Positions 10,287 to 62,577 of a stretch of 64,000 nucleotides of DNA are shown here, piece by piece (positions within the stretch are counted from its first letter, which is position 1; every line of letters begins with the position of its first letter). Origin of the DNA: an uncultured Lachnoclostridium sp. (GTDB lineage Bacteria > Bacillota > Clostridia > Lachnospirales > Lachnospiraceae); assembly GCA_946499505.1 (NCBI GenBank), contig CAMMSL010000001.1, forward strand, positions 62,001 through 126,000, written 5' to 3'. The translations under genes and the position numbers were made by a program. Under the pieces are notes generated by a model, which had not been told where the DNA came from, searched no databases, and saw nothing but the letters and a program-made list of their open reading frames with translations.

Positions 10287-10309
10287 GTAACAGTTCAGCC
10301 ATCTGTTAC
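10287..10309. repeat. dispersed repeat copy A (minimal)
   Basis: GTAACAG-TTCAGCCAT-CTGTTAC is a 7-bp inverted repeat containing the AACAGTTCAGCCAT left end of the repeat family described at 54795. It lies in the short gap between the HtrA-like gene and the YhaM-like gene, and supplies the out-of-place MAELL codons in front of the latter. Confidence 0.6.
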
Positions 10310-27342: not shown

Positions 27343-27443
27343 GGTCCTGCACCTCCTTATGGTCTCTGGCCCCCGTCCTTACGCGGGAGCAAGGAATTTA
27401 TGAAACTGTTCAGATGTAATCCGACAGTATGTCACGGTTATTC

Positions 27444-27472
27444 ATGATACCATAAGAAAGTTGAAGTTTCAA
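27444..27472 (-). promoter_or_regulatory. promoter for rpsF-ssb-rpsR
   Basis: Minus-strand TTGAAA, 17-nt spacer and TATCAT, followed by a leader of about 95 nt before rpsF. Confidence 0.8.
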
Positions 27473-27490
27473 GTGTTTTTTATTTTTTAT

Positions 27491-27558
27491 GAGCAAAGAT
27501 GCGGCGCAGCCGCGCTAAGCACGCCAGTGCGGCTTTGCGAATGGCGCGGGCTGAACTG
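27491..27558. repeat. dispersed repeat copy B (right half)
   Basis: Homologous to the right half of the full copy at 54795-54954. It keeps the outer stem GCAAAG/CTTTGC, the hairpins GCGGC-GCA-GCCGC and GCAC-GCCA-GTGC, and the right end GAATGGCGCGGGCTGAACTG. The left half is absent. It lies between the ABC ATPase stop codon and the rpsF promoter. Confidence 0.75.
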
Positions 27559-27561
27559 CTT

Positions 27562-43104: not shown

Positions 43105-43130
43105 ATCTCCACCGCCTTTTCCGGAAATCT

Positions 43131-43169
43131 TAACAGTTCAGCCCGCGCCATTCCATGGCTGAACTGTTA
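43131..43169. repeat. dispersed repeat copy C (internally deleted)
   Basis: TAACAGTTCAGCC and GGCTGAACTGTTA form perfect 13-bp terminal inverted repeats. The left part CAGTTCAGCCCGCGCCATTC is the exact reverse complement of the right end of copy B (27539-27558); the right part matches the left end of copies A and E. So it is the two ends joined without the middle. Confidence 0.75.
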
Positions 43170-43176
43170 CTCAACA

Positions 43177-45287: not shown

Positions 45288-45320
45288 TTTTATACCAACT
45301 CTTTTGTCTTTTTTATTTAA

Positions 45321-45398
45321 AAGTTCAGCCATCGGGAAGGAGTGGGATGGTTTATGCTTGCATAAGGACCAGCCTGCTCCGTTCCCATGGGGGATATT
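45321..45398. repeat. dispersed repeat copy D (left half)
   Basis: AAGTTCAGCCATC left end, then a hairpin CCATCGGGAAGGAG/CTCCGTTCCCATGG, an inner GGT/ACC stem with a 2-nt 3' bulge (GG), and the cap TTATGC-TT-GCATAA. The layout is the same as copy E but the arm sequences differ with pairing kept. A further small hairpin GGGATAT/ATATCCC follows (45391-45412). Confidence 0.75.
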
Positions 45399-45442
45399 AT
45401 ACGTGATATCCCTCCTGATGGCAAGGGCTGTCCGCCCCTGTT

Positions 45443-53564: not shown

Positions 53565-54776
53565 TCACATGATCTGAACCAGATCCATCTTCGCAATCTC
53601 TTTTTCAATCCTGGACCGGTCTGTAATATGGTTATAAACTTCCATCGTGACACTGATGTTGGCATGTCCCATCACATACTGAACGACCTTCATATCCAGA
53701 TCTGTCTCTGCCATCCGGGTACAGGCCGTATGTCTGAGAATATGGGCGGAAATATGAGGCAGCTCTTCCGGCTTTCTCCTCTCCCGCTTTGCCCGCTCAT
53801 TTTCTTCCTCGTTATACGCCTTCACAATATCCCGGAGAATAAAGTTCACGGTAGTGGGCATCATCGGACGCCCGCTCCTGCTCATGAATACGAAATTCGA
53901 AAGCCCTTCGATCTTCACATCCCTGGGAATCCCCATCTGAAAATTCAGCCGTCTCTGGGTCTCAAAGGCTTTTGCCACCATCTTGCTCATGGGTATCTCC
54001 CGGATCCCGGCTTCTGTCTTCGGCATGGTCACATGAAAATCACACCCGTCTCCATAGTTCTTATAGATCAGCTGATGATTCACGTATACGGTCCTGGTCT
54101 TCAGATCTACATCCTTCCAGGTAAGACCGATCAGTTCTCCACATCGGAGTCCCGTTCCGATCATCACCTGCAAAAGCGGCAGATAGATATGGAATACCTC
54201 ACTGTTCTTTACATAGTTCAACAGATTTTTCTGCTGGTCAAAGGACAGGGCGGTGCGTTTCTTTTCCGGTTCTCCATAATCTCCCAGCGTTCTCTTGGCC
54301 GGATTCTTCCGGATGATATCATCATCTACAGCCACCTCAAAGCTCGGTAAGATCATATTATGGAGAAACTTGATGGTACTGTGGGAATATTTCTGTTTGC
54401 TCAGCCGAGAATAAAACAGGCGTACATGAGATGGTCTTACCTGTACCACTTTCATCTGTCCGAGTTCATTCCTCACAAGACTGTTCCACATCCTTCTGTA
54501 ATTAGCCTGTGTACTCTCTGCCAGCTTTCTGGTATCCATGTGGATCTCAAACAGGTCATTGAGAGTCATGTTCTTGCATTGGGTATCGGTCATAATTCCT
54601 TCGCTCTGGTCTTTCTCAATCTCTTTTTCTTTTTTCCTGAGTTCAGCCAGATCCGGAGAATAAACGGCCAGGCGTCTGCCAGTCCGTTCATCTTTATACC
54701 GGTACATATAGAGTCCATCCTTGCGCTGGGATTCCCCGGTCCTCAGATTTCTTCCTCTATTGTCTTTTCTTGCCAC
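53565..54776 (-). CDS. int: tyrosine integrase (Tn916/ICE type)
   Basis: 403 aa. An N-terminal arm-binding AP2-like segment (GLYMYRYKDERTGRR) is followed by a SAM-like core-binding domain (~70-165) and a catalytic domain with Arg in GTGLRCGELIGLTWKD near 208, HILRHTACTR near 346, and the tail MGHANISVTMEVYNHI with the nucleophile Tyr near 380. It integrates and, with the excisionase gene behind it, excises the element that fills the rest of the window. All catalytic residues are present. Confidence 0.93.
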   Translation of the reverse strand: MARKDNRGRNLRTGESQRKDGLYMYRYKDERTGRRLAVYSPDLAELRKKEKEIEKDQSEGIMTDTQCKNMTLNDLFEIHMDTRKLAESTQANYRRMWNSLVRNELGQMKVVQVRPSHVRLFYSRLSKQKYSHSTIKFLHNMILPSFEVAVDDDIIRKNPAKRTLGDYGEPEKKRTALSFDQQKNLLNYVKNSEVFHIYLPLLQVMIGTGLRCGELIGLTWKDVDLKTRTVYVNHQLIYKNYGDGCDFHVTMPKTEAGIREIPMSKMVAKAFETQRRLNFQMGIPRDVKIEGLSNFVFMSRSGRPMMPTTVNFILRDIVKAYNEEENERAKRERRKPEELPHISAHILRHTACTRMAETDLDMKVVQYVMGHANISVTMEVYNHITDRSRIEKEIAKMDLVQIM

Positions 54777-54794
54777 AAAACCATTCCTTTCTGG

Positions 54795-54954
54795 AACAGT
54801 TCAGCCATCTGGTGTCAGGAGACGGATTTATGCTTGCATAAAAATCCGGTGACTGACATCCAGATGTGGTGAGCGCCCGTGAATGAGCAAAACAATGGCG
54901 GCAGCCATCATTAGCACGTAGTGCGGTTTTGCGAATGGCGCGTACTGAACTGTT
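54795..54954. repeat. dispersed structured repeat, full copy E
   Basis: 160 bp with 10-bp terminal inverted repeats AACAGTTCAG/CTGAACTGTT. Left half: long hairpin CATCTGGTGTCAG/CTGACATCCAGATG, inner CGGAT/ATCCG with a 2-nt bulge, cap TTATGC-TT-GCATAA. Right half: outer stem GCAAAAC/GTTTTGC enclosing two hairpins (AATGGC/GCCAT and GCAC-GTA-GTGC), then GAATGGCGCG and the right end. It lies between int and xis. Confidence 0.8.
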
Positions 54955-55052
54955 GCTTCTGTAATAATCACACCTCCCTGTTGTGGGGAATGGTCTTGTC
55001 CTGTCTATGAAAAGTATAGCACAAAACCATCCCCACGCACATCCGTATTCCT

Positions 55053-55247
55053 CTATTCCGCTATTGCTTCCAGGTATTTCTCCACTTTCTGTACGGAGTA
55101 CAATACCCGGCGGCCGATGGTGATCCGGGCTCCCGCATCTTCCGCAATCTTCCTTGCAGTCATCTGTCCGCAGGAAAGCATAGCGGCCAGCCCTTCAATA
55201 TCCACTGCCAGACGGCAGCTGCTCTCTCTTTCTTTTGTCTGTCTCAT
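55053..55247 (-). CDS. excisionase-like HTH protein
   Basis: 64 aa with a MerR/Xis-like helix-turn-helix (VDIEGLAAMLSCGQMTARKI, GARITIGRRVLYSVQKVEKYL). This is typical of the small excisionases next to Tn916-type integrases. It would bend DNA at the ends and steer Int toward excision. Its start abuts the stop codon of the DnaC-like gene. Confidence 0.85.
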   Translation of the reverse strand: MRQTKERESSCRLAVDIEGLAAMLSCGQMTARKIAEDAGARITIGRRVLYSVQKVEKYLEAIAE

Positions 55248-59062: not shown

Positions 59063-60553
59063 CTAATTTTTATTTAGCTTTTCTTGCAACCGGCTAAAAC
59101 TCTCAAGAGCACTTTGCAAATTTTCAATGATATCACTTGCAAGCTCATCAGGAGACGGAAGATTATCAAGATCTGCTAATGACTTATCTTTGATCCAGAA
59201 AATATCCAAGCTTGTCTTGTCCCGCTCCATAATTTCATCTACTGAGAATTTGCGAAAACGACCATCCGGATTATCTGCCGAATAGGTTTCTGTTCGTTCG
59301 TATCGGTTTTCAGGATTATAGCAACAAATAAAATCTTCAAGATCAGCGTCGCTCATTGGGTGCTGTTTGAGCGTGAAATGCATATTGGTACGGAAATCAT
59401 AAATCCATACATCTTTTGTCTGGCGATGAGCGCTGGCAGGACGCTTGTCAAAAAACAAAACATTTGCTTTTACTCCCGGTTTATAAAAAATACCGGTTGG
59501 CAAGCGAAGAATGGTATGTAAATCGGTTGTTTCAAGCAGCTTTTTTCGAATTGTTTCACCTGCACCGCCCTCAAACAGGACATTATCTGGCACAACGACT
59601 GCTGCCTTTCCGGTAGCTTTGAGAATCGTGTTGATATGCTGTACGAAATTCAACTGCTTGTTTGAACTGGTTGTCCAGAAATCCTGCCGATTATAGACAA
59701 GGTCTTCGTCCTCTTGCTCGCCTCTCTCGTTGGTAAAAGTGATAGACGACTTTTTACCGAAAGGTGGGTTTGTCAGCACATAGTCTACACGGTATCCCGG
59801 ATCTGTCAGTAATGCATCTCCTAGCGTAACCGGAACATTTCCATAAATATCCCCTATATTGTGTAAATATAGGTTCATCAGTGCGGTTTTATAGGTTGCC
59901 GGCACAATTTCATTTCCGTAAAAGGTCTCGTTTTTCAGAAATTCTTTCTGTTCTCTGTCCAGCGTATAATTGTTTGGATTAGCAAGGAAAGACTGAGCCG
60001 CAAGGAAGAAACCGCCGCTACCGCAGCAGGGGTCGGCAATGGTTTTCATCGGTTCGGGACGTAGACAGCGCACCATAGCACGAATAAGCGGACGGGGAGT
60101 AAAATACTGTCCTGCACCGCTTTTAATATCCTCTGCGTTCTTTTGCAATAATCCCTCGTAAATTTCACCTTTTACATCGGACGACATCGCCACCCATTTT
60201 TCTTTGTCGATCATCTGCACCACACGGTACAAAATCGCCACATTGCTGATTTTATTGACAGCGCCTTTGAAGATCTGGCCGAGAATACCGCCCTGTTCGC
60301 CTAATTTTTCCAGCGTAGCTTTGTATTGATCCTCAAGCTCCGCACCTTTCAGCATATTCATATCTGACCAAGCATAACCGGCAGGAATACCGGTATCCCG
60401 TTTATAGGGCGGTTTTGCATATTCGTCAGACATTTTCAAAAAGATGAGGTAGGTGAGCTGTTCGAGATAATCGCCGTAAGATACGCCGTCATCCCGAAGC
60501 GGATTGCACAGCCCCCATACTTTTGAGATTATTGTTGTGGTTTGTTCTGACAT
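59063..60553 (-). CDS. hsdM: type I restriction-modification methyltransferase subunit HsdM
   Basis: 496 aa N6-adenine methyltransferase. An N-terminal helical domain (VWGLCNPLRDDGVSYGDYLEQLTYLIFLKM in parts) is followed by the SAM site (ADPCCGSGGFFLAA near 176) and the catalytic NPPF (VLTNPPFGKK near 261). With HsdS it methylates host DNA; with HsdR it forms the restriction complex. AATGGGAGAATTTATTT precedes the ATG. It is the last gene of a compact five-gene operon. Confidence 0.94.
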   Translation of the reverse strand: MSEQTTTIISKVWGLCNPLRDDGVSYGDYLEQLTYLIFLKMSDEYAKPPYKRDTGIPAGYAWSDMNMLKGAELEDQYKATLEKLGEQGGILGQIFKGAVNKISNVAILYRVVQMIDKEKWVAMSSDVKGEIYEGLLQKNAEDIKSGAGQYFTPRPLIRAMVRCLRPEPMKTIADPCCGSGGFFLAAQSFLANPNNYTLDREQKEFLKNETFYGNEIVPATYKTALMNLYLHNIGDIYGNVPVTLGDALLTDPGYRVDYVLTNPPFGKKSSITFTNERGEQEDEDLVYNRQDFWTTSSNKQLNFVQHINTILKATGKAAVVVPDNVLFEGGAGETIRKKLLETTDLHTILRLPTGIFYKPGVKANVLFFDKRPASAHRQTKDVWIYDFRTNMHFTLKQHPMSDADLEDFICCYNPENRYERTETYSADNPDGRFRKFSVDEIMERDKTSLDIFWIKDKSLADLDNLPSPDELASDIIENLQSALESFSRLQEKLNKN

Positions 60554-60568
60554 AAATAAATTCTCCCA

Positions 60569-61429
60569 TTATTGATATAGTGCAATAATTTCCAGTTGAT
60601 ATACCGGTTTATCTTTAATAGACGATACAGCCGTAGCTTCAAAATCAAATATATTTCCGGAAGTCAATCCTTGAACCGATGTAATTAGACTGTCCTTGGA
60701 AACAGTATCCTTAATTTTTGTGAAAATAGTATTCTTCATAAGCTCTGTTCCATCTGGAAAAACACGCTTTACCTGTGCAAGACAGGTAAGATTTACGTTT
60801 ATCAGATCGGAACGGTTTCCTTGATACAGATTTTCATCCAGGATATTACCTGTAATGGCAAACTCATCAGTTTCAAAAAGGATTTCTTCACCTGCAAACA
60901 GTATTTGAATAGATTTTAGGATATCCTCATACTTTTTTATGTCTTGTTTGTTACTCTGAATCTGTGCTCCAACTTTCTGCATATTAGTAATAAGTTTTAG
61001 AATATCAGTCATCTCAGTAAGCAGGGACTTAATGGAGTTAATTTGAAGATTCACAGGCAAGCAGACAAAATTTCCGGGTTCAGATTTCAAAAGATCAACA
61101 AGATATCCTTTATCTGCAAGTGAGGTTTTAACCATACTCAAAATTGAGGTGATGGTCTGAACTTTTTTCTCACGATTTTCTCTGGATTCTCCATTCGTTT
61201 TTGCAAGCTCGCCATCCAGTGTGCCACCTAAATTTACTAACTTAAACCCTCCACTGATCTGACCATTAAGCTTTCCAGATTTTGTTTTTTCTGAGGAAAT
61301 ACCTGTGGTAATTTCAGCATATTCAGAATACCCGCCATTCAAAATAGCATAAATATCCAATAAACGACTTTGATTGATATAATAAGGAAAAAACAATTCT
61401 ACTTTTGTCTCTTTATCGTTGTTCGTCAA
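60569..61429 (-). CDS. unrecognised protein embedded in type I RM operon (orf286)
   Basis: 286 aa. It starts 2 nt after hsdS ends and stops 15 nt before hsdM starts. The N-terminal part (ELFFPYYINQSRLLDIYAIL, GGYSEYAEITTGISSE) may match DUF6414, but I am unsure. A central helical region (~95-185: VQTITSILSMVKTSLADKGY, IKSLLTEMTDILKLITNMQK) and a C-terminal beta-rich part follow. No catalytic motif or membrane segment is seen. Base composition is more AT-rich than hsdM and hsdR. Its position suggests an accessory or regulatory role in the restriction system, or an embedded second defence gene. Confidence 0.7.
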   Translation of the reverse strand: MTNNDKETKVELFFPYYINQSRLLDIYAILNGGYSEYAEITTGISSEKTKSGKLNGQISGGFKLVNLGGTLDGELAKTNGESRENREKKVQTITSILSMVKTSLADKGYLVDLLKSEPGNFVCLPVNLQINSIKSLLTEMTDILKLITNMQKVGAQIQSNKQDIKKYEDILKSIQILFAGEEILFETDEFAITGNILDENLYQGNRSDLINVNLTCLAQVKRVFPDGTELMKNTIFTKIKDTVSKDSLITSVQGLTSGNIFDFEATAVSSIKDKPVYQLEIIALYQ

Positions 61430-61431
61430 AG

Positions 61432-62577
61432 TTACAGCCTCCCTTCAAACGCCTGTTTTAAAATACTCTGTCGCATAGCTTCAGCTTGTTGCAAAGCGGT
61501 ATCAACTGTTTTTTCTATGCTGTCGCAGACGGATAACTTAATTTCAATTTCCTCAACAATCTTTGATTGCATATCTATATTTGGTAAGTATACAGTAGTT
61601 TTCTTTATATCTGCACCTGCAATACCATTTTGTCCTGAAGTGGTTTTAATTTTACTACGGAGATATTTACGGACATCACCTTGACTCATATAGTAGGCAA
61701 GAAATTTTGAATGAATGGTATTTTGAACCTTGGGTCTGCATTTTATTAGTTTATCTGGATATGCGTATGGTTCAGTAAGTGTCGGTACCACAGCACAAAT
61801 GCCGACATATTCTTTACTGCCATTATATCGTGTAAATAAAATATCATTTTCTGCAATGGTGTCCTCATCTGAAAATCGTGTCTTGTTCAATCGGTTTTCT
61901 GACAAGTCTAAACTAAGCGGACGAACTGCACTAATTTTTAAAATACGATATTCACCGCTATCGTCTGGTTTTAATCCATAACCATTTCTCACTTCACTCA
62001 TTAAATCAGAAAAATAATACTTATCCCAGATTTTACAACCGATAAACGCCTCTTTCAGCACTGTCTGACGATAGACGGCAAGCTGCTGCTTGATGGTTTT
62101 CAGTGTCTCAACCGCCTTATCAAGCTCGGAAAACAACTCCTCAATTCGTGCGACAATCCGTTCCTGCTCGGGCAAAGGGGGGACGATCAATTTAGATTGT
62201 TTTAGAATTTGAGCATTGAGATGTGGTGTACCTGTTCCCTTTTTTTGAGTATTCAACAATGTGTATTTGCTTTGAATAAAGTATCTGAGATATTCTGTTG
62301 TTAAACCGTCTGCACTTATTTTTGAGAGAGTAGAGCCAACTACTCCTTTAATGGCTCGTCCGGTAAGACCGGATCGAGATCCATCACATACGATCAGCAA
62401 ATCTCCATCATCGCAAAGCACGCACTTTTCCGGGAAAGCGTAGCTGTCAACAATGCCTTTTTCAAAAGCTTTTATATCCACATACGGAAGAAAGCCATCT
62501 TCTATTTCTTTGCTTTGCTTTCTAGGCTTCTTGCCTTTTTCCATATGCAAAATTGTTCCAAGTTCAATTTGTTTCAA
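61432..62577 (-). CDS. hsdS: type I restriction-modification specificity subunit HsdS
   Basis: 381 aa with the two-repeat layout of HsdS: target domain 1 (residues ~1-130), conserved helix (PPLPEQERIVARIEELFSEL, LKEAFIG), target domain 2 (~180-320) and C-terminal helix (LPNIDMQSKIVEEIEIKLSV, ILKQAFEGRL). Each target domain reads one half of a bipartite DNA site. One hsdS copy only; no inverted duplicate for phase variation is visible here. Confidence 0.92.
   Translation of the reverse strand: MKQIELGTILHMEKGKKPRKQSKEIEDGFLPYVDIKAFEKGIVDSYAFPEKCVLCDDGDLLIVCDGSRSGLTGRAIKGVVGSTLSKISADGLTTEYLRYFIQSKYTLLNTQKKGTGTPHLNAQILKQSKLIVPPLPEQERIVARIEELFSELDKAVETLKTIKQQLAVYRQTVLKEAFIGCKIWDKYYFSDLMSEVRNGYGLKPDDSGEYRILKISAVRPLSLDLSENRLNKTRFSDEDTIAENDILFTRYNGSKEYVGICAVVPTLTEPYAYPDKLIKCRPKVQNTIHSKFLAYYMSQGDVRKYLRSKIKTTSGQNGIAGADIKKTTVYLPNIDMQSKIVEEIEIKLSVCDSIEKTVDTALQQAEAMRQSILKQAFEGRL

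Follow-up and report, generated by a model that had tools for sequence, protein, structure and literature searches.

The BOX, RUP, and SPRITE repeats of pneumococcus are portrayed, in portions of PMC3049150, as short, structured, and MITE-like, with a resident IS believed to mobilise some of them. There BOX and RUP are described also as having terminal inverted repeats (TIRs) that are paired in the fold, with repeats affecting transcripts. Correia and ERIC elements similarly are presented as short, structured, MITE-like repeats in part of a review (PMC10969869). For the IS66 family, sections of PMC11946415 give ends of GTAAGCG and describe 8-bp duplications, while portions of PMC3189936 and PMC9769881 mention IS66 and MITEs separately. 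Lastly, the Rfam family Clostridiales-1 (RF01699) is viewed by Weinberg et al. 2010 (PMC2864571), in the portion treating it, as probably an RNA but not a cis-regulatory one.

The element considered here lies within a ‘window’, i.e., the whole 64,000-nucleotide stretch of DNA that was analyzed. It resembles BOX, RUP, SPRITE, Correia, and ERIC in being short, structured, and MITE-like, but BOX, RUP, ERIC, and Correia have other ends and other partners (RUP, for example, goes with IS630-Spn1), a separation based on what those same portions describe. Overall it is, with considerable confidence, best explained as an IS66-mobilised MITE possessing a fold-conserved core, with a proposed RNA step included.

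The window copy and its surroundings

The window's 160-bp element is a complete representative of a non-coding, dispersed element (Table 1). The 10-bp inverted repeats (AACAGTTCAG at 54795-54804 versus CTGAACTGTT at 54945-54954), the capped hairpin, and the branched right half reported in the initial annotation are all found, its coordinates being exact, and parts of the element do recur at four other places in the window. The element's termini proper, GTAACAGTTCAGCC...GGCTGAACTGTTAC, are two bases longer per side (GT...AC) than those 10-bp repeats, with the added bases degenerate in the window copy, i.e., GG on the left and GC on the right. That no ORF is found inside holds in the sense that ORFs there are short and mechanically called, but does not hold literally, as one of 26 codons, the only one of at least 20 codons within the element, spans hairpin 1 (minus strand, 54815-54895). 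Further mechanical ORFs enter from outside.

Table 1. Window coordinates of the element, its parts, its gene neighbors, and its other copies
Feature	Position	Strand	Basis or remark
Full element copy (AACAG...CTGTT)	54795..54954	+	covariance model (CM) R1, 172.7 bits; copy itself among the model's building sequences
Probable left target duplication CCTTTCTG	54786..54793		deduced by comparison with orthologue L032 and the unoccupied L293-L295
Left terminal inverted repeat AACAGTTCAGCC	54795..54806	+	same 12 bp in IS66 L266
Hairpin 1, variable arms	54806..54866	+	cap TTATGC-TT-GCATAA at 54828-54841
Conserved GAGCGCC	54871..54877	+	its GCGCC pairs with GGCGC 54937-54941, closing the right domain (helix 4)
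ATGAGC, 5' side of symmetric tandem G-A motif	54883..54888	+	motif read by eye
Hairpin 2, right domain	54895..54908	+	helix 6
Hairpin 3, right domain	54914..54924	+	helix 7
GCGAAT, 3' side of tandem G-A motif	54931..54936	+	motif read by eye
Right terminal inverted repeat CTGAACTGTT	54945..54954	+	sequence
Tn916-type tyrosine integrase (PF02920, PF00589)	53565..54776	-	18 nt between integrase start and element
64-aa ORF (DUF6462, weak helix-turn-helix)	55053-55247	-	other side of element from integrase
Diverged copy, right domain kept	27404..27560	+	E 1e-13
Partial copy, mostly left half	45319..45437	+	E 1e-6
Miniature derivative, scarcely beyond both ends	43130..43170		match 43132-43168, E 0.003
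23-bp derivative, both ends only	10287..10309		sequence match

The element is upstream of, and antisense to, the neighboring integrase gene, a neighbor that the initial annotation had named and which is of Tn916 type. Beyond the 64-aa ORF on the other side, at most a putative excisionase, are IstB-like, RepA_N, and NikA/MobC-like genes. Given this collection, that is, the integrase, the DUF6462 ORF, and those further genes, the element's host looks like an integrative mobilisable element. Near the genes of that integrative element, at 59063-62577, there are as well type I restriction-modification genes (HsdM by Pfam, the specificity subunit by eye).

Ends, target duplications, and empty sites

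Perfect 8-bp target duplications are seen in 18 of 74 rows (73 copies), versus 0.20 expected upon swapping flanks, and mean identity over those 8 bp is 0.59 versus 0.33 with swapped flanks. Other duplication lengths give no signal save for windows nested within this same 8-bp repeat, e.g., 18 perfect 6-bp rows all at one offset; perfect 4-bp rows reach 4 versus about 1. Among own-genome rows, one of 11 (L058) has a perfect 8-bp duplication. Two alternative readings of the ends were rejected. A TA duplication of the IS630/mariner type, as the flanks T-AACAG...CTGTT-A might imply, fails because that T and A belong to the GT...AC ends and because the perfect repeats are of 8 bp. An integron attC, as might be imagined from AAC...GTT ends, was set aside given dispersed copies and 8-bp duplications.

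Empty sites are found as well. The rplJ leader was matched in 49 of 58 genus genomes, and of 30 such loci fetched, 21 are empty and nine carry a copy or remnant (five full), all at one point. Comparison of these loci suggests GT-AACAG...CTGTT-AC ends along with an 8-bp duplication. At this site the copies and remnants (e.g., L007 1505-1664; L211-L240) sit beside the ribosomal L10 leader (RF00557, seen in L007 and L042), upstream of a probable rplJ. An empty site was found likewise for L003.

The window's own site is empty in two integrative elements (L293, L294) that are 98-99% identical over 231 bp, and also in a third (L295), matched over 75 bp. The orthologous site L032 has a full copy, while L292 and L303, both of genome G328, have a short derivative there, with the missing part lying between two CAGCCATC repeats. 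The initial annotation had the element moving after, or with, its mobile element. As related integrative elements that are 98-99% identical are empty at this site, that choice resolves, so far as such comparisons go, to insertion after the host element had diverged, with the ‘with’ falling away. In the window copy, if CCTTTCTG is the left duplication, then one GT base is missing; on the right, its partner TTCTG (54957-54961) appears to be short by 3 nt, and by a strict rule four of eight duplication bases match. The orthologues suggest that this imperfection may represent small losses at the junctions.

A probable IS66 partner

The case is strong that the element is a MITE of IS66 type. It is less than 300 bp (160 bp), lacks a transposase gene, has terminal inverted repeats starting with GTAA (GTAACAGTTCAGCC in copies, with the window copy degenerate), shows an 8-bp target duplication across copies, and has ends which match those of an autonomous IS66 (L266, plus one end at L288). 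The GTAAGCG reported for IS66 in those sections of PMC11946415 therefore agrees with the element's ends over its first four letters.

L266 is a complete, 1,820-bp IS66-family element of a congener, with a single 485-aa transposase (PF03050, E 6e-21; NF033517, E 2e-42 but below the NF033517 cut-off). Its ends are of 23 bp, with the first 14 identical to the MITE ends (14/14), and it has a perfect 8-bp duplication. It is because of these shared ends and this duplication that the element is best read as an IS66-mobilised MITE, and in this way the ‘non-autonomous mobile element’ of the initial annotation, for which target-site duplications, empty sites, and an associated IS transposase had been suggested as checks, is borne out on all three. 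A RAYT partner, by contrast, does not fit the 8-bp duplication and was rejected.

IS66 genes are present in 18 of 58 genus genomes; 30 loci were fetched from 34 matches, and among these 30 matching ends are seen in L266 only. In another genus, L288 has one end that is the same as that of L266 at 22 of 23 positions, beside a 66%-identical transposase fragment, and no such end is seen in the surrounding sequence examined for L290, a related fragment (67%). The IS66 partner thus rests on two loci, i.e., L266 as the one of 30 with matching ends, and L288 with its single end. In the assembly to which the element belongs, PF03050 finds nothing at E 1e-10. Homologues of the L266 transposase number 2270 among 7999 scored candidates. 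What the element shares with the IS66 family (PF03050) is its GTAA-starting ends and its 8-bp duplication. Unlike that family it is without a transposase, has about 14 bp per end in common with it, and possesses a core absent inside L266: within that IS are its end and one chance-level model hit, with the clear model hits at the locus falling in a neighboring MITE copy. From the shared ends we infer that an L266-type transposase may move the element in trans.

Copies in the own genome and in relatives

Further copies, as expected of a dispersed element, are plentiful. In the own genome (3.08 Mb, 84 contigs) there are at least 51 matches at E up to 10, a lower bound as 40 of 70 candidates were scored, and 21 full-length copies were found. 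Among 60 relatives, DNA matches occur in 26 of 36 congeners and in none of 24 genomes from other families. A covariance model built from 39 copies was positive in 11 genomes, the own one among them, out of 246 from across the order. Some of the positives belong to another family (f11), where the ends are the same and the interior is different. Pattern scanning of named genomes gave, among the at least 113 stretches listed, chiefly Mediterraneibacter, with Claveliimonas bilis, Ca. Blautia, Ca. Dorea, Lacrimispora, and the isolate GAM79 among the matches listed beyond it. Carriage of the element is common among Mediterraneibacter genomes and less frequent outside that genus.

Two candidates were dropped. 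Supposed solo right-half families, with matches such as L045 and L047, turn out to be complete 160-bp copies whose hairpin 1 differs in sequence, and viral carriage finds zero exact core matches in viral contigs. A viral scan with the bare 14-bp end returned 120 stretches, which were taken as chance and were unused.

Relation to Clostridiales-1

The window copy matches RF01699 end to end (1-166 of 166), at 23.4 bits, and so has its architecture in full while lying below its gathering cut-off of 48. Of 13 element loci scanned with RF01699, eight match at E up to 1, the best at 39.9 bits; the match of any single element copy is weak. The own genome has two RF01699 members above cut-off (138 and 115 bits) plus one relative (C28) at 45.5. 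Searching the other way, the element's model recovers 19 of the 22 RF01699 sites, each in the correct orientation, at E 1 or lower (best 7e-7), and for 13 of those 19 E is 0.05 or better. There are also nine hits outside RF01699 sites, one of them at E 0.002. The initial annotation, which recognised no named family, calls for correction here, as Clostridiales-1 is a relative, with the element below its cut-off.

RF01699 itself is found in 60 of 120 genomes of the family (above cut-off in 53), with at least 21 copies in each of eight. Its copies sit within TIR-bounded, dispersed units of 185-224 bp, for which perfect 5-bp duplications are seen in 15 of 21 versus 0.47 expected, though 12 of these 21 are from one genome. 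RF01699 seems short at its 3' end, with many units (L304-L329, L333-L352) continuing via an extra hairpin to an inverted end. A pattern search of seven genomes for a transposase associated with RF01699 ends gave nine single ends, in three genomes, and no autonomous element was recognised.

The two families thus are alike in having an outer stem, a hairpin with a GCTTGC-type cap, and an ATGAG.../...GCGAAT helix, in the same order; in the model of each finding the other; and in both being TIR-bounded, dispersed repeats. They are unlike in that RF01699 has ends of TGATACCAGGGTCAAAAGGT..., a duplication of 5 bp versus the element's 8 bp, and the extra 3' hairpin. It is quite probable that a core is common to the two, and common descent of these cores is likely. 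With RF01699 units TIR-bounded and flanked by 5-bp duplications, a single folded core seems to be carried by two distinct sorts of transposon ends. Loci L064, L065, L188, L191, and L192 have a similar core between other inverted ends (e.g., CCAGTTTCGCC) and are possible further carriers of the core.

Fold, strand, and gene context

The window element folds at -67.5 kcal/mol (z -5.4) as the + strand and at -65.5 kcal/mol (z -6.7) as the - strand, with none of 200 dinucleotide shuffles as good in either case. In an alignment of 62 copies less than 88% identical, plus the window copy, 93.4% of 3,149 cells are paired, under a structure computed from the same alignment. Double changes are found in 33 of 50 pairs, again with an alignment-derived structure and with relatedness not removed, and zero of 500 shuffles reach any of the measures. 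The ‘selected DNA or RNA structure’ of the initial annotation, for which covariation was to be the check, is upheld by these counts. The right half is the conserved part; hairpin 1 varies.

The mismatches of hairpin 1 (109 of 121 copies), as read on the + strand, are of G-U type in 84 instances versus A-C type in 25, or 73 versus 23 as distinct events (p 3e-7). Purine-purine mismatches number 194 versus 16 pyrimidine-pyrimidine, an excess due partly to one inherited internal loop. The + strand also gives the more stable fold in 56 of 63 copies. One strand thus is favored, whether as RNA or as single-stranded DNA, and there are good grounds for a strand-specific fold being under selection.

Which of these two forms matters is where the leading alternative comes in. 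It supposes the same MITE, but with the fold needed as single-stranded DNA rather than RNA, i.e., at a replication fork or as a hairpin recognised by a host or transposition protein. The G-U and purine excess and the stabler + fold would likewise be expected of single-stranded DNA, and DNA-parameter folding prefers the + strand in 61 of 63 copies. Gene context speaks to this too. Among the 121 copies, 98 are flanked on both sides by mechanically called ORFs, 16 more overlap one, and seven are at contig ends. The 98 intergenic copies are tandem antisense (39), tandem sense (22), divergent (30), or convergent (7), such that copies favor regions upstream of genes. The left neighbor points away in 69 of 98, at sites that are not all independent, and so the + strand is not obviously transcribed. 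The 39 versus 22 of tandem contexts, a weak contrast, argues mildly against a role in sense transcripts. IS66 transposases, however, are DDE enzymes, not single-strand transposases, and an 8-bp duplication fits DDE. The 22 copies of GAM79, moreover, show no clear bias either by strand (15 versus 7) or by replichore (12 of 22, with origin position assumed). A need for the fold as single-stranded DNA we consider unlikely.

Change at shared sites

Grouped by insertion site, the 121 distinct full copies form 93 clusters, allowing copies at the same site to be compared. Fifteen same-site pairs together show 11 compensated double changes versus 1.7 expected (0 of 1000 simulations), with pairing taken from the folded first copy and thereby favoring its pairs. 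Pairs broken by one change number 31 versus 52 expected, pair-breaking double changes 5 versus 1.7, and one-sided changes that keep the pair 28 versus 32.2, i.e., no excess. Paired positions change at a rate of 0.053 versus 0.107 for unpaired. In 24 of 31 same-site comparisons, similarity is lower in hairpin 1 than in the right domain, with the reverse in five and ties in two (one of the 31, L176/L049, has poorly matching flanks). The first stem, that is, diverges faster than the remainder, with pairing kept. In L169/L166 and L127/L181, hairpin 1 is nearly unrelated even though the left flanks agree at 0.88 and the copies share uncommon letters at their termini. L048 and L141, also among same-site copies, similarly have rare terminal letters in common with hairpin-1 letters nearly unrelated.

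Such replacement invites a mutational account of the covariation, again with the same MITE, in which replication template switching would repair the palindrome, with the stem exchanged by gene conversion between the many copies. Hairpin 1 being almost wholly different at the same insertion site, with the rest unchanged, is as this account would have it, and adjacent partial copies do have arms in common (L139, L018). Template switching should result, though, in perfect pairs and in both strands being alike, and alone would not give 73 versus 23 G-U to A-C events. The stems of the right domain show double changes too, and no donor with matching arms is seen for L151, L169, L166, L127, or L181 among the copies compared, an incomplete sample. 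Mutation as the source of the covariation thus strikes us as improbable. It is very improbable that the element is an independent small RNA gene or regulator, the kind under which Rfam lists Clostridiales-1, and just happens to be repeated: its unpaired letters are conserved, and the view of Clostridiales-1 as a probable RNA in that portion of the 2010 paper is in keeping with this, but orientation to neighboring ORFs is mixed, empty sites speak against it, and the target duplications refute it as sole explanation. A REP/RAYT or IS200/IS605-type palindromic element, despite the hairpins and copies dispersed mostly between ORFs, is scarcely credible given 8-bp duplications, as such transposases are not known to leave any.

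What the core may be doing

For the IS66-mobilised MITE, the mechanism proposed is as follows. An IS66-family (DDE) transposase would recognize the GTAACAGTTCAGCC ends, move the MITE in trans, and duplicate 8 bp of target. The core, a long capped hairpin plus a branched domain on a tandem G-A motif, has its fold kept on one strand, including post-insertion. The + strand may then be transcribed, by read-through or from flanking promoters, with the core acting as folded RNA. That RNA could soften insertion damage near gene starts, whether through RNA processing, protein binding, or polarity relief. As between forms, RNA is slightly favored as the working form of the fold.

The core probably predates the ends it has now, as Clostridiales-1 has a related core with different ends and a 5-bp duplication. 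A bolder and quite tentative suggestion, one perhaps more apt to be wrong than right, is that the folded core is the true selfish unit. It would have come to sit inside the ends of two or more transposases that are not related (IS66-type, 8-bp; Clostridiales-1-type, 5-bp), reaching tens of copies per genome in Lachnospiraceae. Its + fold would be kept by function, with its first stem turning over at the insertion site more quickly than the flanks, as though new letters there were favored, whether to evade recombination between copies, RNA silencing, or a sequence-specific nuclease.

In the open-licence literature, no paper was found on Clostridiales-1 as mobile nor on IS66-type MITEs of this kind. 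Those portions of PMC3049150 and PMC10969869 drawn upon above make no mention of one core between two kinds of ends, and the word ‘compensatory’ is absent from the main text of PMC3049150. What is new here is the link of RF01699 to mobile DNA, the in-place turnover of a stem, and whatever use the fold may have. Both Clostridiales-1, which entered the literature in 2010 as a probable RNA, and the cousin described here look like miniature-transposon cargo, which changes how Clostridiales-1 should be annotated and tested. The element offers also a natural experiment on what leads certain MITEs to retain elaborate folds, with many same-site comparisons in which letters change and pairing stays. 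These same-site stems make selection versus mutation, and RNA versus DNA, directly testable in gut commensals. GAM79 (G513), with a complete genome and 22 model matches, is a convenient isolate for transcript studies.
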